64,000 nucleotides of DNA. Source: Rhizobium sp. Q54. Its GTDB lineage: Bacteria; Pseudomonadota; Alphaproteobacteria; UBA2966; CAIVPW01. Shown here piece after piece: positions 39,440 to 49,228 of the stretch. The position numbers were made by a program, and so were the translations under genes. The first letter of the stretch is position 1. Each line of letters starts with the position of its first letter. Under the pieces are notes generated by a model. It was not told the origin of the DNA, ran no database searches, and saw nothing but the letters and a program-made list of their open reading frames with translations. The DNA lies in contig CAMEYM010000010.1 of NCBI GenBank assembly GCA_945947575.1, positions 1-64,000 on the forward strand, read 5' to 3'.

Positions 39440-40081
39440 ATGGAGAGAGCGATCCCCGCACCCAAGAAGACGAAGCCGAAGGCACCGACTGCTAAGAAGG
39501 CGCCCGCGCGCAAGCTGACCAAAGCACCCGCCCGCAAGACGGGCGCCACCAAGACCAAGCCGTCCGCGGCCAAGGCCAAGAACAAGAAGATGGCCTTCGC
39601 GGCGAAGCCCCTGAAGGCGGCGCGGCCGAAGGCGCCGCCAAAGAAGGCGCCACCACGGAAGGCAGCGCCACCGAAGGCGACGCGACCGACCGCCACTCCG
39701 AAGCCAGCGAAGTCGAAGGCCTCGACGCAGCTCTTGAACTTGGCCCTGAAGTCGCTCGACGACGATCAGGCGGTGGATGTCTCGACGATCGACCTGGAAG
39801 GCAAGACGAGCATCGCCGACCACATGATCGTCGCTTCGGGCCGTTCCCAGCGTCAGGTCGGCGCCATGGCCGTGCACTTGATGCAGCGACTGAAGGCGGC
39901 AGGCTATCGCGGCATCCAGATCGAAGGCATGCCGCAGAACGACTGGGTGCTGGTGGATGCCGGCGACGTCATCGTGCATCTGTTCCGGCCCGAGGTGCGC
40001 ACGTTCTACAACCTCGAGAAGATGTGGTCCGCGGAGTTCAACGAGGCCGCCGCAGCGGACGCCGAGCGAGCCCACGGCTGA
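39440..40081 (+). CDS. rsfS: Ribosome silencing factor RsfS with long basic N-terminal extension
   Basis: The C-terminal 115 residues are a normal RsfS (QLLNLALKSLDDDQAVDVSTID ... IADHMIVASGRSQRQVGAMA ... IEGMPQNDWVLVDAGDVIVHLF, parts), which binds L14 and blocks 50S joining. The first about 95 residues are almost entirely Lys, Ala, Pro and Thr, a tail not seen in the usual 105-130-residue RsfS. ATG 39440 lies 3 nt after nadD. An internal ATG near 39590 would remove half of the tail. rlmH, often the next gene, is missing; gpmI follows directly. Confidence 0.92.
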   Translation: MERAIPAPKKTKPKAPTAKKAPARKLTKAPARKTGATKTKPSAAKAKNKKMAFAAKPLKAARPKAPPKKAPPRKAAPPKATRPTATPKPAKSKASTQLLNLALKSLDDDQAVDVSTIDLEGKTSIADHMIVASGRSQRQVGAMAVHLMQRLKAAGYRGIQIEGMPQNDWVLVDAGDVIVHLFRPEVRTFYNLEKMWSAEFNEAAAADAERAHG

Positions 40082-40083
40082 CC

Positions 40084-41655
40084 ATGGCTGAGTCGTTGCG
40101 CCGCCGTCCGGTCGTGCTGTGCGTGCTCGATGGCTGGGGCCATCGCGAGGAGCCGCGCGACAACGCCATCGCCATCGCCAAGACGCCGGTCTACGACCGC
40201 CTGGTGCGGACCAATCCGGTCAGCTTCCTTGCGACGTCCGCAGAGGAAGTGGGGCTGCCGGCGGGACAGATGGGCAACTCCGAGGTCGGGCACATGAATC
40301 TCGGCGCCGGGCGCACGGTGATGCAGGTGCTGCCGCGCATCGACGTCGAGTCGGGCCGCGGCTATCCGGAAGTGCCGGGGCTGAAGAAGCTGATCGCCAC
40401 GCTGAAGGCGTCGAAGGGCGCCTGCCACGTGATGGGATTGCTCTCGCCGGGTGGCGTGCATTCGCACCTGCAGCATTTCGCGCCGATGGTGAAGGCCATC
40501 GCAGCGCAGGGCGTGCCGGTAGTGCTGCACCTGTTCCTGGACGGGCGTGACACGCCGCCGAAGAGTGCGCTGGAGTACCTGAGCACGTTCGAGCAGCAGA
40601 TCGCGAGCGTCGGCGGCGTGCGCACCGCCACCGTGTCGGGGCGCTTCTTCACCATGGATCGCGACAAGCGCTGGGATCGCGTGGCGCAAGGCTACGCGGC
40701 GCTGGTGAGCGGGCGCGGCGTGATTGCCGCGGACGCGCAACGCGCCATCGAGAACGCCTACGCGCGCGGCGAGACCGACGAGTTCGTCGAGCCGACGGTG
40801 CTGTCCGGCTACGGCGGTATGAACGACGGTGACGGCGTGCTGATGCTCAACTTCCGCTCCGACCGCGTGCGGGAGATCCTGAGCGCGCTGGTCGATCCGG
40901 CCTTCACCGGATTCGCGCGCGAGCGCGTACCTCAGTTTGCGGCCGTTGCGGGCATGACGGACTATTCGGACGCGCTCAGCGAGAAGCTGATCACGCTATT
41001 CCCGCAGCAGCGCCTGACCAACTCGCTCGGCGAGCTTGTCAGCCGCGCCGGCGGCCGCCAGCTGCGCATCGCCGAGACCGAGAAGTACGCCCACGTCACG
41101 TTCTTCTTCAACGGCGGTGAGGAGACGGTGTTCGTCGGCGAAGACCGCATCATGGTGCCGTCGCCGAAGGTGCCAACCTATGACCAGAAGCCGGAGATGT
41201 CTGCCCAGGAAGTGACCGACCGCCTCGTCGAGGCGATCCAGTCGGGCACCTACGACTTCATTCTGGTGAACTACGCCAACGCCGACATGGTCGGACATTC
41301 CGGAATCCTGAGCGCGGCGATCCGCGCCGTGGAGACGGTGGACGCGTGCCTCGGCCGCGTTGAGGCGGCGGTGGTGCAAGCGGGCGGCGTGCTGTTGATC
41401 ACCGCCGACCACGGCAACGTCGAGATGATGCGCGACGACGCGACGGGCCAGCCGCATACCGCGCATACGACGTGTCCGGTGCCGGCGATCCTGGTCAACG
41501 CACCGGCCGAAGTCCGCGGCATCCGCGACGGACGCTTGGCGGACATCGCGCCGACCCTGCTGCCGTTCCTCGGCCTCACCCAGCCGCGCGACATGGACGG
41601 CCGCAATCTCCTGCAGCTCGCCGAGGAAGCGAAGCGGTCGGGCGCGCGGCGCTAA
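40084..41655 (+). CDS. gpmI: 2,3-bisphosphoglycerate-independent phosphoglycerate mutase
   Basis: A 523-residue manganese enzyme interconverting 3- and 2-phosphoglycerate. It has VVLCVLDGWGHREEPRDNA at the start with metal ligands, the catalytic serine in GQMGNSEVGHMNLGAGR, and the second metal cluster NYANADMVGHSG ... ITADHGNVEMM ... HTAHTTCPVP. Length is standard. ATG 40084 is 2 nt after the rsfS stop. Confidence 0.97.
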   Translation: MAESLRRRPVVLCVLDGWGHREEPRDNAIAIAKTPVYDRLVRTNPVSFLATSAEEVGLPAGQMGNSEVGHMNLGAGRTVMQVLPRIDVESGRGYPEVPGLKKLIATLKASKGACHVMGLLSPGGVHSHLQHFAPMVKAIAAQGVPVVLHLFLDGRDTPPKSALEYLSTFEQQIASVGGVRTATVSGRFFTMDRDKRWDRVAQGYAALVSGRGVIAADAQRAIENAYARGETDEFVEPTVLSGYGGMNDGDGVLMLNFRSDRVREILSALVDPAFTGFARERVPQFAAVAGMTDYSDALSEKLITLFPQQRLTNSLGELVSRAGGRQLRIAETEKYAHVTFFFNGGEETVFVGEDRIMVPSPKVPTYDQKPEMSAQEVTDRLVEAIQSGTYDFILVNYANADMVGHSGILSAAIRAVETVDACLGRVEAAVVQAGGVLLITADHGNVEMMRDDATGQPHTAHTTCPVPAILVNAPAEVRGIRDGRLADIAPTLLPFLGLTQPRDMDGRNLLQLAEEAKRSGARR

Positions 41656-41674
41656 CAGCGGCGCCCAACTGGCC

Positions 41675-41905
41675 CTAGCGGCCGGCCGCGCCGGTGCTGG
41701 CGAAGGTCACGCAGAGAGTGACCGCGCCGCGACAGCGGAAGGCGCTCTCCGGCCGCTCGGGAGCGGTGGCCGCCTTGGCGACCAGGGTCGCCGCGGGCAG
41801 GGCATGCGGGAAGAATGCGCTGACAGCGGCGGCGAGGGCGAAGCCGAGGGCAATGCCGACCAACGCTCGCGACACGGTGCACTCCGAGCGGGAGGAAGCG
41901 ACCAT
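41675..41905 (-). CDS. Possible small membrane-anchored protein
   Basis: A 76-residue reading frame on the strand opposite to its neighbours, with one good hydrophobic segment (ALVGIALGFALAAAVSAFF) near the N-terminus and two cysteines in the C-terminal part (FRCRGAVTLCVTF). An AGGTGGAG sequence directly precedes the ATG at 41905. It fills a 358-bp gap between gpmI and the EnvC-like gene. No family is recognised; it may be chance in GC-rich DNA. Confidence 0.35.
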   Translation of the reverse strand: MVASSRSECTVSRALVGIALGFALAAAVSAFFPHALPAATLVAKAATAPERPESAFRCRGAVTLCVTFASTGAAGR

Positions 41906-42013
41906 CTCCACCTAGGCGCAAACGGCGCGCGCCGCACTGTGGCAAGCAGGCAATCTCTCGCCAGGGCCATCCGGCCGGCGCCGGAGTAGCGCGAGAGGAG
42001 TAGTATCGAGTCC

Positions 42014-43165
42014 GTGAGACTCGGGCCGTTCGCACTTCCGTTGCTGGCGCTTGGCGCCGCCCTGCTGGCCTTGCCGGCGGCGGCGCAAGAGCCGCTGCCC
42101 GGTCCGCTACAACAGCTGCAGGAACTGGAGCGGGCGCTCGAGCAGAGCCGGCTGCGCCAGCAGGAGTTGGCGCGCCAAGCGGCGCGGCTGGCGCAAGAAC
42201 TCGGCACGCTGCGCGCGCAACTGGTCGCGGCAGCGGAAGCTGTGCAGCAGCAGGAAGCGCGCATCACCTTGATCAACGCGCGCCTCGACGTGTTGCGCGC
42301 CGAGGAGGCGACGCGCTCGGAAGCATTGATGCGCGAGCATCGCGACCTTGCCGTCGTGCTGGCGAGCCTGGCGCGGCTGTCACGCCAGCCGCCGGCGACC
42401 ATGGTGGCCGGCCAAGGCGCCGCTATCGATCTCGTGCGCTCGTCGTTGCTGCTCGCCGCGGTCGTGCCGGGACTGCAAGATCGCGCCCGCGAGGCGGTCA
42501 ACGAGCTCGTTTCCATCCGTGAGCTTCGCCGCGCCATCGCCGAGGAGCAGGCGGGGCTCGCCGACGCATACCGTCAGCTCGAGACGGAGCGCAGACGGCT
42601 GGCTGGATTACTGGAGCAGAAGGGCGCCGAGCAGGCGCAAACCCAGACCGCTGCCCTAGCGGAACGCGAGCGCGTGACACGCATGGCGGCCGAGGCGCAG
42701 GACCTGCGCGAGTTGCTGGGCCGCCTCGACGCGGAACCCGGGTTCGACGTCGGGCCGCCCGAAGGGACGCGGCCATTCGCCGAGGCGCGCGGGCGCCTGC
42801 CGCTGCCGGCTCGCGGCAAAGTGATCCGCTCCTGGGGCGAGGTCGATCCGCTCGGATTCCCGGCCCGTGGCCTCACGGTCGAGATCGTCGACGGCGCACA
42901 GGTGGTGGCGCCGTACGATGGCCGAATCGTGTTCGCCGACGCCTTCCGCAGCTATGGCCAACTCTTGATAATCAGCCATGGCGGGGGCTACCATACGTTA
43001 ATAGCCGGGCTATATCGTATCGACGGTCAAGTCGGCCAATGGCTGCTGGCCGGAGAGCCTGTGGGCCAGGCAAGCCACGGTGAGAACGGCAAATCCACGC
43101 TTTATGTAGAGCTGCGCCGCAACGGCGAGCCGATCAACCCATTGCCGTGGTTGGCGGCACGGTAG
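42014..43165 (+). CDS. envC: EnvC-like murein hydrolase activator (degenerate LytM/M23)
   Basis: A 383-residue exported protein: signal peptide (FALPLLALGAALLALPAAA-QE), a coiled-coil region (about 30-230), then a LytM/M23 domain (about 255-380: KVIRSWGEV, VVAPYDGRIVFADAFRSYG, LIISHGGGYHTLIAG). The zinc ligands of active M23 enzymes are incomplete: the first His/Asp pair is absent and the final HxH is replaced by VELRRNG. This is typical of EnvC, which activates amidases instead of cutting murein itself. GTG start at 42014. It is followed by ctpA. Confidence 0.9.
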   Translation: MRLGPFALPLLALGAALLALPAAAQEPLPGPLQQLQELERALEQSRLRQQELARQAARLAQELGTLRAQLVAAAEAVQQQEARITLINARLDVLRAEEATRSEALMREHRDLAVVLASLARLSRQPPATMVAGQGAAIDLVRSSLLLAAVVPGLQDRAREAVNELVSIRELRRAIAEEQAGLADAYRQLETERRRLAGLLEQKGAEQAQTQTAALAERERVTRMAAEAQDLRELLGRLDAEPGFDVGPPEGTRPFAEARGRLPLPARGKVIRSWGEVDPLGFPARGLTVEIVDGAQVVAPYDGRIVFADAFRSYGQLLIISHGGGYHTLIAGLYRIDGQVGQWLLAGEPVGQASHGENGKSTLYVELRRNGEPINPLPWLAAR

Positions 43166-43227
43166 CTGCCCCAAAGGGGCCACACGGGACCGGTACTAGG
43201 GCTGAGCAAGATAGGGATCGAACCACG

Positions 43228-44466
43228 ATGATCAGGACCGCGTTCCTTGCGACCGTTGCCGGTGGCCTCGCCCTGGTGACACTTCCGGCGCAGACGGCGG
43301 AAACCACCGCCTATCAGCAACTCAACCTGTTCGGCAACGTGTTCGAGCTCGTGCGCGCGCGCTACGCCGAGCCGGTCGATGAGCAGAAGCTAATCTACTC
43401 CGCCATCAACGGCATGCTTGCCGCCCTCGACCCGCATTCGGCCTTCATGGCCGCCCAGGAATACCGCGACATGCAGGAGCGCACCTCCGGCGAGTTCGGT
43501 GGCCTTGGCCTCGAAGTGCGCATGGAAGAGGGCCTCGTCCGCGTTTCGCGTCCGATGGAGGACTCGCCCGCCCTGCGCGCCGGCGTCAAGCAGAACGACC
43601 TAATCACGCACATCGATGGCCAGCCCGTCATGGGCCTGACGCTGAACGAGGCCGTCGAGAAGATGCGCGGCCGCGTCAACACTCCGATCGACCTGACCAT
43701 CACGCGCGACGGTGCCGCGGCGCCGTTGGTCGTGCGGGTCACGCGCGAGATCATCCGCCAGCCCTCCGTGCGCTACCGCGTCGAGGGCAACGCCGCCTAC
43801 ATCCTGATCACCTCGTTCTCGGAACAGACCGAGTCGGGCGTGCGCCGCGCCATGACCGAGCTGCGCGCCACCCTCGGCGACAAGTTCGAGGGTGTCATCC
43901 TCGACGTGCGAAACAACCCGGGCGGCCTGCTCGAGCAGTCGGTCGCCGTCGTCGATGCGTTCCTGGAGCGCGGCGAGGTCGTTTCGACCCGCGGCCGCGA
44001 GACCGGCAACGTGCAGCGCTACACGGCCCGCCGCGGCGACCTCGCCGAAGGCAAGCCGGTCATCGTGCTGACCAACAACGGCTCGGCCTCGGCGTCGGAG
44101 ATCGTCGCCGGCGCCCTGCAAGACCACAAGCGGGCCATCATCCTGGGCACCACAACCTTCGGTAAGGGCTCGGTGCAGACCATCATGCCGATGGGCGATC
44201 AGGGCGCCATGCGCCTGACCACCTCGCGCTACTACACGCCGTCGGGCCGCTCGATCCAGGGCACCGGCGTGGTGCCCGACGTCGTCGTCGAGCAGGCGCG
44301 CATCCAGCCGCTGCGCGCGGCGGACGGCACCGCCACGACCGCAACGGCGGCTCCGCCGCCGGCCGCCGGACCGGGCGCCACCACGCCCCCGGATTACCAG
44401 CTGGCGCGCGCCATCGATCTATTGCACTCGCTGTCGGTGTACCAGAAGGCACCGGCGGTGAACTAA
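43228..44466 (+). CDS. ctpA: S41 carboxy-terminal processing protease
   Basis: A 412-residue periplasmic protease with signal peptide, a PDZ domain (about 95-175: GGLGLEVRMEEGLVRV ... DSPALRAGVKQNDLITHIDG) and the S41 catalytic domain. The Ser/Lys dyad is present: SASASE with catalytic Ser288 and TFGKGSVQ with Lys313. The C-terminal 30 residues are Ala/Pro/Thr-rich before DYQLARAIDLLHSL. ATG 43228 gives a normal signal peptide. Located between EnvC-like activator and a second CtpA-like gene, in the known envC-ctpA order of Alphaproteobacteria. Confidence 0.95.
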   Translation: MIRTAFLATVAGGLALVTLPAQTAETTAYQQLNLFGNVFELVRARYAEPVDEQKLIYSAINGMLAALDPHSAFMAAQEYRDMQERTSGEFGGLGLEVRMEEGLVRVSRPMEDSPALRAGVKQNDLITHIDGQPVMGLTLNEAVEKMRGRVNTPIDLTITRDGAAAPLVVRVTREIIRQPSVRYRVEGNAAYILITSFSEQTESGVRRAMTELRATLGDKFEGVILDVRNNPGGLLEQSVAVVDAFLERGEVVSTRGRETGNVQRYTARRGDLAEGKPVIVLTNNGSASASEIVAGALQDHKRAIILGTTTFGKGSVQTIMPMGDQGAMRLTTSRYYTPSGRSIQGTGVVPDVVVEQARIQPLRAADGTATTATAAPPPAAGPGATTPPDYQLARAIDLLHSLSVYQKAPAVN

Positions 44467-44497
44467 GCAGCACGCAAATCCTGGGTTTGGAGTCCAA

Positions 44498-45802
44498 ATG
44501 AATCAGTCTCGGGTTACGACGGCGCGCGGGAACGGTGTGCGCTCGGCGCGGCGCGCCGGCATCAGCAGCATCATCGTCGCGGCGACGCTCGGCCTACTGA
44601 CCGCCGACACATTGGCGGCGGACGCGCGCACCTACACCCAGCTCAACCTGTTCGGCGACGCGTATGACCGCGTGCGCCGCGCCTACGTCGAACCGGTGGC
44701 GGACGAGCACCTCATCCGCTCGGCCATCAACGGCCTGCTCGCGGCACTGGATCCGGATTCGGTGTTCATGACGCCGCAGGCCTACAAGGACCTGCTCGCC
44801 AACAAGGTGCGCGTCTATGACGGCCTCGGCCTTGAGATCACCATGTCGGAGGGCGTCGCCCGCGTGGTCGCGCCGATCGACGGCGGCCCCGCCTTCACGG
44901 CCGGCCTGCGCACTGACGACCTGATTGTCGATATCAACGGCACGCCCGTCTACGGCATGAACCTGACCGAGACGATCCAGGCATTGCAGGGCGCCCCCGG
45001 CACCGTTGCCGACCTGGTCATCGTGCGCCAGGGCTCCGATGCGTTCCGCCAAGCGGTGACACGCGAGGCGGTCGCCGAGCCGGCGGTGACGGCGCGCACG
45101 CGCGGCAACGAAGGCTACATCCGCATCCCCTACTTCACTCCGGGCGTGCTGGCCCAGGTCACCAAGGCGGTGACCGACCTGCAGGCGAAGCTCGGCCAGA
45201 ATTTCGAGGGCGTTGTCCTCGACCTGCGCAACACACCGGGCGGCTCGCATGAAGCGGCCCTCCAGGTCGCCGACGCGTTCCTTGTGGACGGCCTGATGAT
45301 GTCGATCCAGGGCCGCGCCGAAGGCGACTCGAAGGCGTTCACCGCCACCCCCGGCGACATCCTGCAGGGGCGGCCCCTCGTCGTTCTCGTCGACGGTGGC
45401 ACGGCCGGCCCGGCGGAAATCCTCGCTGGCGCGCTCAAGGATCGCGGCCGCGCCATCACCATCGGCACGAGCACGTTCAAGCGCGGCTCCGCCCAGTCGC
45501 TCGTGCAAATGGGCGAATTCGGCTACGTGCAGCTCACCACGGGCTACTACGTGACGCCCAAGGGCGCATCGATCCAGAACGACGGCATCGTCCCCGAGAC
45601 GATCGTCGAGCCGGCCCGCGTCATCCTGCCGGAGGACCGTTTCCCTCGCCGCACCGAGGCGACCCTGCGTGGCGCCCTCGACGTGCCGGCCGGCGGCCGC
45701 GCCGCGGTGCAGACCGAGGCGGCCGAGGTCGACTACCAGCTGGCGCGCGCGTTTGACCTGTTGCACGCCCTTGCCCTGGTCAATCAGTTCGCCGCGAACT
45801 GA
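44498..45802 (+). CDS. Catalytically dead CtpA paralogue (pseudo-protease)
   Basis: A 434-residue exported protein that aligns with the preceding CtpA along its whole length: YTQLNLFGDAYDRVRRAYVEPV, AINGLLAALDPDSVFM, the PDZ domain (DGLGLEITMSEGVARV ... AGLRTDDLIVDING), LDLRNTPGGS and the identical tail pattern DYQLARAFDLLHAL. At the active site SASASE has become TAGPAE (Ser to Gly304), and TFGKGS has become TFKRGS (Lys to Arg329). Both catalytic residues are thus missing while the fold is kept, which suggests a binding or scaffold role, perhaps with CtpA. It starts 31 nt after ctpA; tandem duplication is likely. Confidence 0.9.
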   Translation: MNQSRVTTARGNGVRSARRAGISSIIVAATLGLLTADTLAADARTYTQLNLFGDAYDRVRRAYVEPVADEHLIRSAINGLLAALDPDSVFMTPQAYKDLLANKVRVYDGLGLEITMSEGVARVVAPIDGGPAFTAGLRTDDLIVDINGTPVYGMNLTETIQALQGAPGTVADLVIVRQGSDAFRQAVTREAVAEPAVTARTRGNEGYIRIPYFTPGVLAQVTKAVTDLQAKLGQNFEGVVLDLRNTPGGSHEAALQVADAFLVDGLMMSIQGRAEGDSKAFTATPGDILQGRPLVVLVDGGTAGPAEILAGALKDRGRAITIGTSTFKRGSAQSLVQMGEFGYVQLTTGYYVTPKGASIQNDGIVPETIVEPARVILPEDRFPRRTEATLRGALDVPAGGRAAVQTEAAEVDYQLARAFDLLHALALVNQFAAN

Positions 45803-45921
45803 GCCGCACGCGCTCGCGGCCGCCGCGCTTCGCGGCGCGTCGCCGTTCGTGACGCGCCCCACGGGATACCAACTCGCGCGCCCTAGTGGCGCGCGGGACG
45901 TTTTGGCCCAGGCGTAACGCC

Positions 45922-47469
45922 ATGTTCGGCCGGAAAAAGAAGGCAGCAGCGGAGCCCGAGGTCGAGGAAGACGACGTTGCCCTCGACGAGGACGACGACG
46001 CCCCTGCAGCCACGGACGATGCGCCCGACGCGGACGCCGATGCCACAGCCGACGACGATGTCGCGGCCACCGCGCCGGACGACGAAGACACGTCCGACGA
46101 CGACGGCGATGCGGACGGCGATGACGAGCCGGCCGAGGCCGACGACGATCACCCCGACATCAGCCAGTTCTTCGGCGGCGGCGGCAGCAGCAACGCGGAC
46201 GACATCGACGACGACGCGGCAGAGATCGGCGTAAGCGACGACGACTACGAGGACGACGACGAGGGCAAGCGCCCGCTGTGGAAGAACCCGATCCTGTGGG
46301 CCTCGCTCGGCCTGCTGCTGGTTGTCGGTGTCGCCATCGGCTGGACGACGGTGAGCTTCGACCGCGAGGCCTACGAGGCCGCGTTGGCGCCCCCGACCGC
46401 CGGCGTGGCGCTGCCACCGCCGCCCCCCCGTGCCGGGGCGACGGAAGCCGCCGCGGTTGCACCCGATGCCGCCGCCCCGGGCGGCGCTGCCGCGCCCCAG
46501 ACCGCCGCGGCCACGACCCCAGCGGTTCCCGCAGCTACTCCCGCCGCTGCACCCGCCGCGCCCGTCGCTGCGGCGGCGACTCCGGCAGCCGCCACCACGC
46601 CCCCCGCGGGCGCAGCGCCGGCTCCGCCAGCGGCCGCGGCACCCGGCGATGCGGCGGTGGCCGCCCTGACGCCGGCGCCCGATCCGGGCCTGATTGCTCC
46701 CGGCGAGAATGGCCCGCTGCCCATCAAGGGCGAAGACGGCCGCGAGCCGTGGCGCGTGTACGCGCGCCCGTTCGCGCTGCCCCCCGAGATGCCCAAGATC
46801 GGCATCGTCATTGGCGGCCTCGGGTTGTCCCGCGCCGCCACCCAGGCAGCCATCCAGCAGTTGCCGCCCGAGGTGACCCTGGCGTTCGCGCCGTACGCAC
46901 CGAACCTTGAGGCGCAGATCGCCGAGGCGCGCGCGGCCGGTCATGAAGTCGTGCTGCAGCTGCCGATGGAGCCGAACGGCTACCCCGCCAACGATCCGGG
47001 CCCGCACACGCTGCTCACCACCGCCGCGGCCGAGGAGAACATCGCTCGCCTGCATTGGCTGCTGTCGCGCTTCACCGGCTATGTCGGCGTCACCAACTAC
47101 ATGGGCGGCAAGATGAGCACCTCGGCGGAGGCGCTGCGCCCGATCCTCACCGACCTGCAGACTCGCGGCCTGATGTTCCTGGACGCGCGCGAGATGACCG
47201 ACAGCGTCGCCTCGGCGGTCGCCACCGAGCTCGGCATGGCGCGCGCCGTCACCAACCGCTTCCTCGACACCGAGGCCAATCGCCTGAGCGTCGATGCGCG
47301 CCTCCTGGAACTCGAGCGCATCGCCGCCACTCAGGGCGGCGCCATTGGCATCGGCTACGCCTATCCGGTGACGATCGAGCGGGTCGCGACCTGGATCCGC
47401 GCCCTGCGCGGCAAGAACGTGGCTCTGGCGCCGATCTCGGCGCTGGCGCGCACTTCCGCCACCAATTGA
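45922..47469 (+). CDS. Divergent polysaccharide deacetylase (DUF610) with acidic N-terminal region
   Basis: A 515-residue protein. Residues 1-112 are an extremely Asp/Glu-rich cytoplasmic region after MFGRKKKAA. One transmembrane helix follows (about 122-142, ILWASLGLLLVVGVAIGW), then a Pro/Ala-rich periplasmic linker (to about 265). The C-terminal 235 residues are the divergent polysaccharide deacetylase domain, COG2861 (KIGIVIGGLGLSRAATQAAIQQLP, LPMEPNGYPANDPGPHTLL, GVTNYMGGKM, FLDAREMTDSVASAVA, GAIGIGYAYPVTIE; parts). Normal relatives are about 250-400 residues, so the acidic region is extra. It is the usual neighbour of ctpA and rppH. The catalytic role is unproven in the family. Confidence 0.88.
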   Translation: MFGRKKKAAAEPEVEEDDVALDEDDDAPAATDDAPDADADATADDDVAATAPDDEDTSDDDGDADGDDEPAEADDDHPDISQFFGGGGSSNADDIDDDAAEIGVSDDDYEDDDEGKRPLWKNPILWASLGLLLVVGVAIGWTTVSFDREAYEAALAPPTAGVALPPPPPRAGATEAAAVAPDAAAPGGAAAPQTAAATTPAVPAATPAAAPAAPVAAAATPAAATTPPAGAAPAPPAAAAPGDAAVAALTPAPDPGLIAPGENGPLPIKGEDGREPWRVYARPFALPPEMPKIGIVIGGLGLSRAATQAAIQQLPPEVTLAFAPYAPNLEAQIAEARAAGHEVVLQLPMEPNGYPANDPGPHTLLTTAAAEENIARLHWLLSRFTGYVGVTNYMGGKMSTSAEALRPILTDLQTRGLMFLDAREMTDSVASAVATELGMARAVTNRFLDTEANRLSVDARLLELERIAATQGGAIGIGYAYPVTIERVATWIRALRGKNVALAPISALARTSATN

Positions 47470-47990
47470 GCGCGACGATTGACCGGCCCGGCGGTGATCT
47501 TGCCGCGCGCGTGCGGTCCCTGCCCTACCGGCGCAACGTCGGCATCATGATGCTGAACGCGGACGGCCTGGCGCTGGTCGGCCACCGCGTCGATATGAAG
47601 GCCGACGCCTGGCAGATGCCCCAAGGCGGCATCGACGACGGCGAGGAGCCCGAGCACGCGCTCTGGCGCGAGCTGCTTGAAGAGGTCGGCACCGACAAGG
47701 CGAGCGTGCTGGCGCGGGCGCGCGACTGGATGCCCTACGACTTTCCCTTGGAACTGCAACCGACGTTGTGGGAGGGCCGCTTCCGTGGCCAAACCCAGAT
47801 GTGGTTCCTGCTGCGGTTCCTGGGCACCGACGCCGACCTGGCGCTGGACACCCACGAGCGCGAGTTCACCCACACACGCTGGGTGAAGCCGGAGGAACTG
47901 CCGAGCATGGTGATCGGCTTCAAGCGCGAGACCTACCGCAAGGTGCTGGCAGAGTTCGCAGAGCATCTCCGTCGTCGCGAGCCGGAGTAA
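47466..47990 (+). CDS. rppH: RNA pyrophosphohydrolase
   Basis: A roughly 174-residue Nudix enzyme that removes pyrophosphate from mRNA 5' ends. It has the conserved entry LPYRRNVGIMMLN, WQMPQGGIDDGE and the Nudix box G-x5-E-x7-REL-x-EE-x-G (GGIDDGEEPEHALWRELLEE). TTG at 47466 overlaps the deacetylase stop by 4 nt (TTGA); GTG near 47511 would give a shorter protein. Length and sequence fit alphaproteobacterial RppH/NudH. Confidence 0.94.
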   Translation: MSATIDRPGGDLAARVRSLPYRRNVGIMMLNADGLALVGHRVDMKADAWQMPQGGIDDGEEPEHALWRELLEEVGTDKASVLARARDWMPYDFPLELQPTLWEGRFRGQTQMWFLLRFLGTDADLALDTHEREFTHTRWVKPEELPSMVIGFKRETYRKVLAEFAEHLRRREPE

Positions 47991-48072
47991 TCCGGCAGCC
48001 CGAGGGCTCGGCCTGATTGACCATCGCCGGACTTAGGCCGACGATGTGCGCATCCCGACCAGGAGGCAGCGC

Positions 48073-48633
48073 ATGGCCAAGGCAACCAAACGAGCCACCA
48101 AACGACCGGCGGCAAAGGCCGCAACCAAGAAGCGGGCTCCCGCCCGAGCAGCCAAGCGCACCCCGCGCAAGGCCGCCCGGACCGCAGCGAAGAAGGCGCC
48201 GGCCAAGAAGGCCGCGCGCGCCAAGAAGCCGGCACGCGCGAAGAAGCCTGCCCGCGCCAAGGCGGCGCCGGCGCAGGACCTCAGCGGCTGGATCACGCAC
48301 ACCGAGCTTGCGACGAGCAACCCGGAGGCGACTCAGGCCTGGGGCGCCAAGGTATTCGGCTGGACGGCACGGCCGAGCGTGCCGTCTCCGAACGGCCCCT
48401 ACTACATGTTCACGTATTCCGATAAGGGCGGCGGCGGCGTCCGCGGCCTCGACCCGACCGAGAAGCCGAGCAGCGTGCCGTATGTCAACGTCAAGGACTG
48501 CCGCGCCGCCTATGCGAAAGCCCTCGCGGCCGGCGCCGAGGGTGTGATGGCCCCGGAGACCGTCATGCCGGGCACGACCATCGCCACGGTCCGCGCGCCC
48601 GGTGGCGTACTGATCGGCATCGCCGGCCCGTAG
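48073..48633 (+). CDS. VOC-fold protein with histone-H1-like N-terminal tail
   Basis: Residues 1-65 are almost only Lys, Ala, Arg and Pro (KKAPAKKAARAKKPARAKKP type). Residues 68-186 form a vicinal-oxygen-chelate (glyoxalase/bleomycin-resistance) domain: GWITHTELATSNPEATQAWG, KVFGWTARPSVPSPNGPYYMF, VPYVNVKDCRAAYAKALAAGAE and IATVRAPGGVLIGI (partial). The metal-ligand residues of the family (His at the first strand, Glu near the end) are only partly visible: HTELA has the His, the last Glu is not obvious. ATG 48073 has a perfect AGGAGG 6 nt upstream, so the basic tail is translated. A DNA- or RNA-bound VOC protein is a reasonable guess, not shown. Confidence 0.85.
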   Translation: MAKATKRATKRPAAKAATKKRAPARAAKRTPRKAARTAAKKAPAKKAARAKKPARAKKPARAKAAPAQDLSGWITHTELATSNPEATQAWGAKVFGWTARPSVPSPNGPYYMFTYSDKGGGGVRGLDPTEKPSSVPYVNVKDCRAAYAKALAAGAEGVMAPETVMPGTTIATVRAPGGVLIGIAGP

Positions 48634-48686
48634 GCCGCGCGTTTCCGGGCCAATGCCGAGGATAGATATCTCGGCGGCCGTTCCTG

Positions 48687-48725
48687 CCTGAAGGTCGCGC
48701 GGACCGTTCACCGCGCTCCTTCAGG
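48687..48725 (+). promoter_or_regulatory. 5' UTR hairpin that partly covers a ribosome-binding site
   Basis: CCTGAAGG (48687-48694) pairs with CCTTCAGG (48718-48725), and GCGCGG (48697-48702) with CCGCGC (48711-48716), closing an 8-nt loop. The 3' arm ends inside the AGGAGG site (48723-48728) of the gene starting at 48737. The structure would hide half of the Shine-Dalgarno sequence. Confidence 0.6.
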
Positions 48726-48736
48726 AGGAACCTCAC

Positions 48737-49228
48737 ATGAGGAAGTATCTGGCATCGGCCGCAACAGCGGCCGCGCTCGCCGCACTGGCCACGTCGTCGC
48801 AAGCGGAGGGTAACCTCGCCGCGGGACCACCCACTGATCTTGCCGTCACCATCACCACCACGCCGAACGGGCCGGTGGTGGCGCCGGCGTCGTTCGACAT
48901 GGTTACGGGCAAGTACTACCGGCTGAACTTCACGTTCGCTGGACCGGACACCGATCCGGACTGGCGGCTCGAGGTGAATGACCTGTTGTCGAACTCACAT
49001 GTGCGGGTGATGACGATCGGCGGCATCGAGCTGCACATCCAGGGCATGCCGTTCCGGGCGATCGAATTCGACGGCGCCGGCACCGTGCAGTTCAGCTTCG
49101 TCGTGATCCGGCCGGGCAACTACCCGTTCATCGTCGGCGAAAACCCGGGCGCAATGGGCCTGCCGGTGGGCACGCCGGGCCAGGCTGACCCGAACCGGCG
49201 AGCGATCGGCATGTTCCAGGTGAAGTAG
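48737..49228 (+). CDS. Exported cupredoxin-like protein, function unknown
   Basis: A 163-residue protein with a signal peptide (YLASAATAAALAALATSSQA-EG) and a beta-rich mature part: LAVTITTTPNGPVVAPASFDM, GKYYRLNFTFAG, IEFDGAGTVQFSFVVIRPGNYPFIVGENPG (parts). The overall strand order and the ending P-G-N-Y-P-F resemble cupredoxin-like domains, but the usual Cys-x-x-x-x-His-Met copper site is absent. A very good AGGAGG site precedes ATG 48737, partly inside a hairpin. It is a single gene between the VOC gene and the atp terminator. Confidence 0.68.
   Translation: MRKYLASAATAAALAALATSSQAEGNLAAGPPTDLAVTITTTPNGPVVAPASFDMVTGKYYRLNFTFAGPDTDPDWRLEVNDLLSNSHVRVMTIGGIELHIQGMPFRAIEFDGAGTVQFSFVVIRPGNYPFIVGENPGAMGLPVGTPGQADPNRRAIGMFQVK

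Follow-up and report, generated by a model that had tools for sequence, protein, structure and literature searches.

Why should a bacterium keep, directly behind a complete gene for the C-terminal processing protease CtpA, a second ctpA gene whose product has lost the catalytic residues? The question is raised by a stretch of 64,000 nucleotides from Rhizobium sp. Q54 (assembly GCA_945947575.1, contig CAMEYM010000010.1, positions 1 to 64,000), hereafter called the window, which belongs to a genome of 2.49 Mb in 40 contigs. An earlier note, made from the sequence of the window, had described there a tandem of a CtpA protease and a paralogue without catalytic dyad, and had taken the latter for a selected pseudo-enzyme, perhaps an adaptor or an inhibitor of CtpA. 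Both reading frames are indeed intact, and their products, P0001 (copy 1) and P0002 (copy 2), are 44% identical over 411 aligned positions. A search of the genome with PF03572 returned these two S41 genes and no others. We propose, and consider it likely, that copies 1 and 2 form a hard-wired CtpA hetero-oligomer in which the dead subunit is a dedicated activator and not an inhibitor.

The two proteins are close relatives in their domain content. Peptidase_S41, PDZ and CtpB_N-like domains all score above the Pfam cut-offs in both (for P0002, 131.1 bits for S41 and 43.6 for PDZ_6), and both proteins pass the TIGR00225 cut-off of 218.6, with 323.9 for P0001 and 225.4 for P0002. The architecture had been called shared from end to end; this holds for the CtpB_N-like, PDZ and S41 domains and for the DYQL tail, but not for a conserved Glu-x-x-Leu motif in the loop that joins the protease core to this tail, which is found in copy 2 only. 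The alignment agrees with the substitutions described before, as Ser288, Lys313 and Gln317 of P0001 face Gly304, Arg329 and Gln333 of P0002, with the downstream Gln kept. Since Gly304 and Arg329 replace the Ser-Lys dyad, P0002 is to be regarded as a non-peptidase homologue and not as an active CtpA. Compared with S41A CtpA proteins (residue numbers without a protein name are those of Pseudomonas aeruginosa CtpA, PaCtpA, verified at 26 named residues), P0001 possesses the dyad and H84 and is devoid of the trans-interacting loop motif (E385, L388). P0002 has neither the dyad nor a His at H84; the CtpA-type dimer helices, the C-terminal helix and the trans-interacting loop motif are all present in it at the sequence level. 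In this loop, Glu387 corresponds to E385 of PaCtpA and to E382 of Helicobacter pylori CtpA, and Leu390 to L388 of PaCtpA. Direct alignment with the H. pylori protein places H85, F105, R162 and E382 of the latter opposite Asp87, a Tyr, Gln164 and Glu387 of P0002.

Two structurally characterized systems give these residues their meaning. PaCtpA with LbcA (PDB 7rpq, 7rqh, 8sxe-8sxh) is the best sequence and fold match for both copies and shares with them the domains, the N-terminal dimer helices and the C-terminal helix. According to the study of this complex (PMC11021448), activity is confined to the front subunit of a dimer; an inactive CtpA′ of a neighbouring dimer inserts its loop there, and E385′ of this loop bonds H84 of the active subunit; the S302A substitution abolishes activity. 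H. pylori CtpA (PDB 9jr1, 9ksp, 9ku0, 9ku3, 9kub, 9kuc) likewise assembles from three dimers, each with a single active subunit, and has a His85-Glu382 contact. Its description (PMC12749690) states that no more than one subunit of an N-dimer can be active, that the loop residue Glu382 bonds His85 of the active subunit, that H85A and E382A largely reduce activity while E382R abolishes it, and that the authors think His85 and Glu382 evolved pairwise. R162 of the same enzyme, equivalent to R168 of CtpB, is described as stabilising the PDZ domain in active subunits. In P. aeruginosa a single gene fills both roles, and in H. pylori a homo-hexamer switches roles, whereas here the roles look divided over two genes and the asymmetry would be fixed in the sequence.

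Indeed, the two halves of the contact have been lost reciprocally. We surveyed seven functional positions in 111 sequences (118 less 7 near-copies and duplicate loci, L001, L002, L027, L048-L053), 15 from the family and 96 rows, or 94 loci, from outside it. The genome set comprised the eight genomes of the family, a GTDB family of four genera, among 15 of the order; five genomes make up the genus of the window, and G005, G006 and G007 represent other genera, with G006 in genus g3. Copy 1 keeps H84, S302 and K327 in 7/7 cases and has lost E385 and L388 in all seven complete tails, G006 being left out of these counts as a contig end cuts its copy 1. Conversely, copy 2 keeps E385 and L388 in 7/7 and has lost H84 in 7/7, where D, Q, D, D, E, L and E are found. 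Outside the family, 92 rows read H84/S302/F325/K327/Q331/E385/L388, and the other rows are two fragments that have the loop pair and do not reach the His, one fragment with the His only, and L117. Thus, in this survey of 96 rows, no outside sequence readable there lacks the His half or the loop half, and Ser and Lys are present in 95 of the 95 outside rows covering their positions. A looser test, [DE]xx[LIMV] in the linker, was passed by 0/7 first copies, 7/7 second copies and 94/94 testable others, two outside rows being too short for it.

The survey included 40 extra genes: 20 were the top matches of a copy 2 profile, and 17 of the other 20 were chosen to look for loop loss, their profile match stopping before position 410 of 426. 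L117 (from G307), a ctpA whose frame breaks before the loop, was considered as an outside CtpA without loop and rejected, as the motif and the DYQL tail continue in another frame, after either a sequencing error or a real break. The only other tandem pair that we saw indicates that tandem duplication alone does not lead to such a split. This separate pair, at the same place in G018 (L040), from another family of the class, retains Ser, Lys, His and loop pair in each of its copies, the second of which lies on a long branch.

Other residues of the active subunit are also divided between the copies. R161 is kept in copy 1 and lost in copy 2 in 7/7 cases each; L248 is lost from 7/7 second copies, and L249 and V330 from 6/7, all three being kept in 7/7 first copies. 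F325 and Q331 are kept in both. In a scan of 147 sites conserved in at least 90% of the other sequences, where a site was counted as changed if altered in at least 4/7, copy 1 is changed at 17 sites and copy 2 at 46. The 84 core sites account for 25 of the changes in copy 2 and for 5 of those in copy 1, and the two conserved loop sites are changed in copy 1 only. These losses bear on the idea of a substrate-binding adaptor or chaperone, the PDZ domain of which would pass substrates to CtpA in place of LbcA or NlpI. The PDZ domain of copy 2 is still recognised and the substrate path is kept in the active copy, but copy 2 is altered in 7/7 cases at G102, F104, G105 and R161 of the PDZ domain, F104 changing no further than to Tyr, and has mostly lost the substrate strand L248/L249, so that we regard this role as very unlikely.

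As judged from the alignments, neither copy has lost the main oligomer contacts. The residues L46, F49, A73, L78, L81, Y418, Q419 and L420, which make dimer and C-terminal helix contacts, are identical in 14/14 sequences, and six conserved sites of the tail helix are unchanged in both copies.

Is copy 2 truly dead, and is it maintained? In the genus of the window, Ser is replaced by Gly in 5/5 second copies and Lys by Arg in 4/5, with G004 reading FKKGS and so keeping the Lys; G005 has Ala at the Ser position and keeps the Lys. Position 302 of the seven second copies is therefore G five times, A and S once each, and position 327 is R four times and K three times. Loss of both dyad residues, as first described, is true of this genome and of 4/7 second copies but is not the rule, in view of G004, G005 and G007, and the Gly304/Arg329 combination is conserved within the genus (Gly 5/5, Arg 4/5) but not in G005 (Ala/Lys) or G007 (Ser/Lys). 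Because these three genomes retain part or all of the dyad, it must have been lost after the duplication, in steps. The copy 2 frame is free of internal stops in 7/7 family genomes with the pair, the window's included, and the stop codons that could have spoken for decay are thus absent. Nei-Gojobori ratios of nonsynonymous to synonymous substitution (dN/dS) for the 10 within-genus pairs are 0.07-0.23 for copy 1 and 0.19-0.32 for copy 2, which argues that copy 2 is constrained, though more loosely than copy 1. Between genera they are 0.15-0.41 and 0.14-0.49, respectively, with synonymous sites near saturation in pairs with G005. We conclude from the sequences that in this genus, where the nucleophile is absent 5/5, copy 2 is a selected pseudoprotease.

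A decaying gene, or an enzyme with an unusual active site, is for the same reasons hardly credible. Such a view could appeal to the Ser and Lys kept in copy 2 of G007 and to the Lys that, in the genus of the window, stands one position before Arg329. Against it are the frame open in 7/7, a dN/dS well below 1, and a position 302 without Ser in 6/7 second copies, which is the position where S302A inactivates PaCtpA.

The pair occurs in 7/8 family genomes, at the same place and in the same order in 7/7 informative ones; G006 (79% complete) is uninformative because its contig ends inside ctpA. The sister family has one full CtpA adjoining envC in 7/7 genomes; its extras are a second S41 gene elsewhere in G009, a 135-residue piece in G014 and some weak distant matches. 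When 385 genomes sampled from the class, including three members of the family, were searched with a copy 2 profile, the matches listed contained no additional copy 2: the family scored 726-817 bits and the next best place, outside it, 454. In the tree, copy 2 forms one clade (100/100) and copy 1 another (90/81), the two being sisters at weak support (66/76). The stem of copy 2 is long (1.61 vs 0.17), and the tree must be read with caution on account of its long branches and of the odd composition of G007 copy 2. Since G005 and G007 branch differently in copy 2 and in copy 1, the Ser may have been lost either once or twice. Taken with the within-genus dN/dS and the retained contacts, the presence of the pair in 7/8 genomes gives good support to what the earlier note had put forward as a selected pseudo-enzyme partnering CtpA.

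S41-fold proteins without a protease role exist, and copy 2 could in principle act alone, apart from CtpA, as a binding protein of that fold. IRBP modules do appear among the fold matches of our structure models. That the genes stand in tandem in every informative genome (7/7), and that the two sides of an inter-subunit contact are encoded separately, is difficult to reconcile with such independence, to which we give very little probability.

The models themselves were built with AlphaFold2 as template-free single chains, the best of five models being taken from one run each (P0001, predicted local distance difference test, pLDDT, 77 and predicted template modelling score, pTM, 0.63; P0002, pLDDT 68 and pTM 0.54). 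The P0001 model matches chain A of 8sxe/f/g/h (TMt 0.81-0.83) better than chain B (0.53-0.58), and active CtpB (4c2c, Z 30.3) better than resting CtpB (4c2e, Z 23.0). The P0002 model behaves inversely, with TMt 0.67-0.74 for chain B and 0.57-0.59 for chain A, and Z 28.5 for resting 4c2e and 25.8 for active 4c2c; chain A is here taken as the active subunit on the basis of the labelled entries. The all-resting H. pylori structure 9ksp gives Z 27.1 with P0002 and 23.5 with P0001. P0001 is thus modelled in the active and P0002 in the resting conformation, which fits the proposed roles.

How could these features work together? Within a mixed CtpA oligomer, copy 2 is most likely the subunit that always rests and donates its loop, and would therefore be an activator. 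The two copies would make an obligate hetero-oligomer built on the CtpA trimer-of-dimers plan. Copy 1 would serve as the active subunit. Copy 2, locked in the resting state, would pair with one copy 1 in the N-terminal dimer and, via the C-terminal contact, insert its loop into the active site of the copy 1 of the next dimer, where Glu387 of copy 2 would bond His70 of copy 1. Such an arrangement may have arisen from an ancestral homo-oligomer with one active subunit per dimer, through tandem duplication and complementary loss, which would have left a catalytic and an activating subunit. The two copies probably work only as a mixed complex. The more precise picture of an obligate A3B3 protease, with one active subunit per dimer genetically fixed, activation by the pseudoprotease and the contact His and Glu on different genes, has in our judgement about an even chance of being right. 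Copy 2 would possibly be a built-in substitute for an external activator such as LbcA. The reciprocal residue losses, the retained contacts, the synteny, the selection on copy 2 and, in the genus of the window and G005, the missing nucleophile are observations; that the copies form a mixed complex, in what stoichiometry, and that copy 2 activates it, we infer.

The alternative closest to this proposal has copy 2 as a dominant-negative inhibitor that enters CtpA dimers, cuts the number of active sites and so regulates proteolysis. It would suit the loss of the catalytic residues with retention of the main dimer and hexamer contacts, and the adjacency of the two genes on one strand. It leaves unexplained why the loop motif is lost from copy 1 in 7/7 and retained in copy 2 in 7/7, and, because one subunit of each dimer is at rest in any case, activity would not necessarily fall with a dead one. 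We found nothing in support of the inhibitor that the earlier note had suggested; the reciprocal loss at the interface points to a loop-donating resting subunit, and inhibition appears unlikely.

Several observations weigh against the activator proposal. In PMC11021448, all PaCtpA loop mutants, deletion included, lose a minor part of their activity only. A loop donor need not always be resting either, since LbcA may occupy one face or the other at each vertex of PaCtpA (same source). One duplication is the ancestor of all seven pairs, and the reciprocal loss is consequently one evolutionary event, not seven. Copy 2 of G007 keeps both Ser and Lys and, on this evidence, may still cut; the highest dN/dS values also come from pairing G007 with genomes of the window's genus (copy 1 up to 0.41, copy 2 up to 0.49). 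The linker of copy 1 is short (24-37 residues) and difficult to align, and since copy 1 is altered at 15 further conserved sites, loop loss is not its only drift. At the interfaces, 4 of the 17 conserved dimer-region sites are changed in copy 2 against 2 in copy 1, those of copy 2 including F53Y and M77L in 6/7 second copies, strand S10 differs between the copies, and the loop contact N394 is V or I in copy 2. In PaCtpA, N394A is without effect, according to PMC11021448. Finally, the models are of moderate confidence and lack a single-copy CtpA control, and the PaCtpA crystals 7rpq/7rqh, which are inactive and in which a large part of the PDZ domain is missing, fit the two about equally (Z 28.4 for P0001, 27.1 for P0002).

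The copy 1 linker of G001 (L033) reads PLSEANAQ, in which the Glu-Ala part of the lost motif may survive as a vestige.

If the proposal is correct, the pair encodes a natural heteromeric C-terminal processing protease. Dead paralogues as fixed subunits are known in other proteases; among C-terminal processing proteases we found no case in the open-licence literature. There, queries on S41 pseudoproteases, CtpA pseudoenzymes, inactive paralogues and heteromers gave no such case, although a published example may lie outside that literature. The plastid ClpPR core belongs to another fold and family and is an ATP-dependent ring, and the CspC/CspA proteins of Clostridioides difficile are of the subtilisin type, with an unrelated fold and a part in germination signalling. 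The likeness lies in the use of dead subunits: ClpR paralogues are fixed subunits of a mixed serine-protease core (PMC6508832), and the two pseudoproteases CspC and CspA act in regulation as a heterodimer (PMC12880746). Two recent structural studies propose CtpA hexamers with half of the subunits resting and loops lent across dimers (PMC11021448, PMC12749690). A lineage in which these roles are divided over two genes would independently support the functional asymmetry of CtpA. It would also allow the active and the resting subunit to be mutated separately, which is impossible in a homo-oligomer.

Features of the tandem ctpA locus, with positions in the window
Feature	Positions	Strand	Remarks
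envC, conserved upstream neighbour	42014-43165	+	Pfam Peptidase_M23
sigma70-like match, the only one in 41500-48800	42965-42994	+	inside envC, ends 234 bases before ctpA
ctpA copy 1 (P0001, 412 aa)	43228-44466	+	intact open reading frame; complete Ser-Lys protease, without loop motif
P0001 His70 (= P. aeruginosa CtpA H84)	43435-43437	+	kept
P0001 Ser288 (= S302)	44089-44091	+	catalytic nucleophile
P0001 Lys313 (= K327)	44164-44166	+	catalytic base
P0001 core-to-tail linker, residues 360-388	44305-44391	+	without Glu-x-x-Leu motif
P0001 C-terminal DYQL helix	44392-44445	+	trimer-of-dimers interface in PaCtpA
Inter-copy gap, 31 bases	44467-44497	+	no terminator-like site on + strand
ctpA copy 2 (P0002, 434 aa)	44498-45802	+	intact open reading frame; pseudoprotease paralogue, loop motif kept
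P0002 Asp87 at H84 position	44756-44758	+	His lost
P0002 Gln164 at R161 PDZ sensor position	44987-44989	+	Arg lost
P0002 Gly304 at S302 position	45407-45409	+	nucleophile lost
P0002 Arg329 at K327 position	45482-45484	+	
P0002 trans-interacting loop motif FPRRTEATLRGALD	45641-45682	+	
P0002 C-terminal DYQL helix	45731-45796	+	kept
Polysacc_deac_2 gene after copy 2	45886-47469	+	Pfam

The S41 pair is preceded by gpmI-envC and followed by two genes, one for a divergent polysaccharide deacetylase and an rppH-like NUDIX gene. Pfam recognises iPGM, Peptidase_M23, Polysacc_deac_2 and NUDIX domains in these neighbours, which we take to be gpmI, envC, the deacetylase gene and rppH. In the sister family, 5/7 genomes have the order of the window, with the deacetylase and NUDIX genes directly behind ctpA; G010 has a recognisable NUDIX gene only, and the contig of G012 stops shortly beyond ctpA. 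For the link to the EnvC-amidase machinery that had been suggested, we found nothing beyond this gene neighbourhood.

The gap between the copies measures 10-66 bases in the other six pairs, with start codons as picked by us. A scan of 41500-48800, of little power, found neither promoter nor terminator between the copies: promoter-like sites numbered 1 against 0.5 expected, and terminator-like sites 2 against 2.9. In P. aeruginosa a ctpA transcript starts inside envC, 239 bases upstream. Given one site found and 0.5 expected, the sigma70-like match inside envC is possibly due to chance.

The Polysacc_deac_2 protein has a very acidic, Asp/Glu-rich N-terminal region ahead of a hydrophobic stretch, a feature shared by G001, G002, G007 and two loci of the sister family (L042, L044). 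Two unrelated proteins of the window, one with a Glyoxalase domain (48046-48633, +) and one with an RsfS domain (39440-40081, +), carry long Lys/Ala-rich N-terminal tails which resemble histone H1, and the tail of the Glyoxalase-domain protein recurs in G002 and G001.

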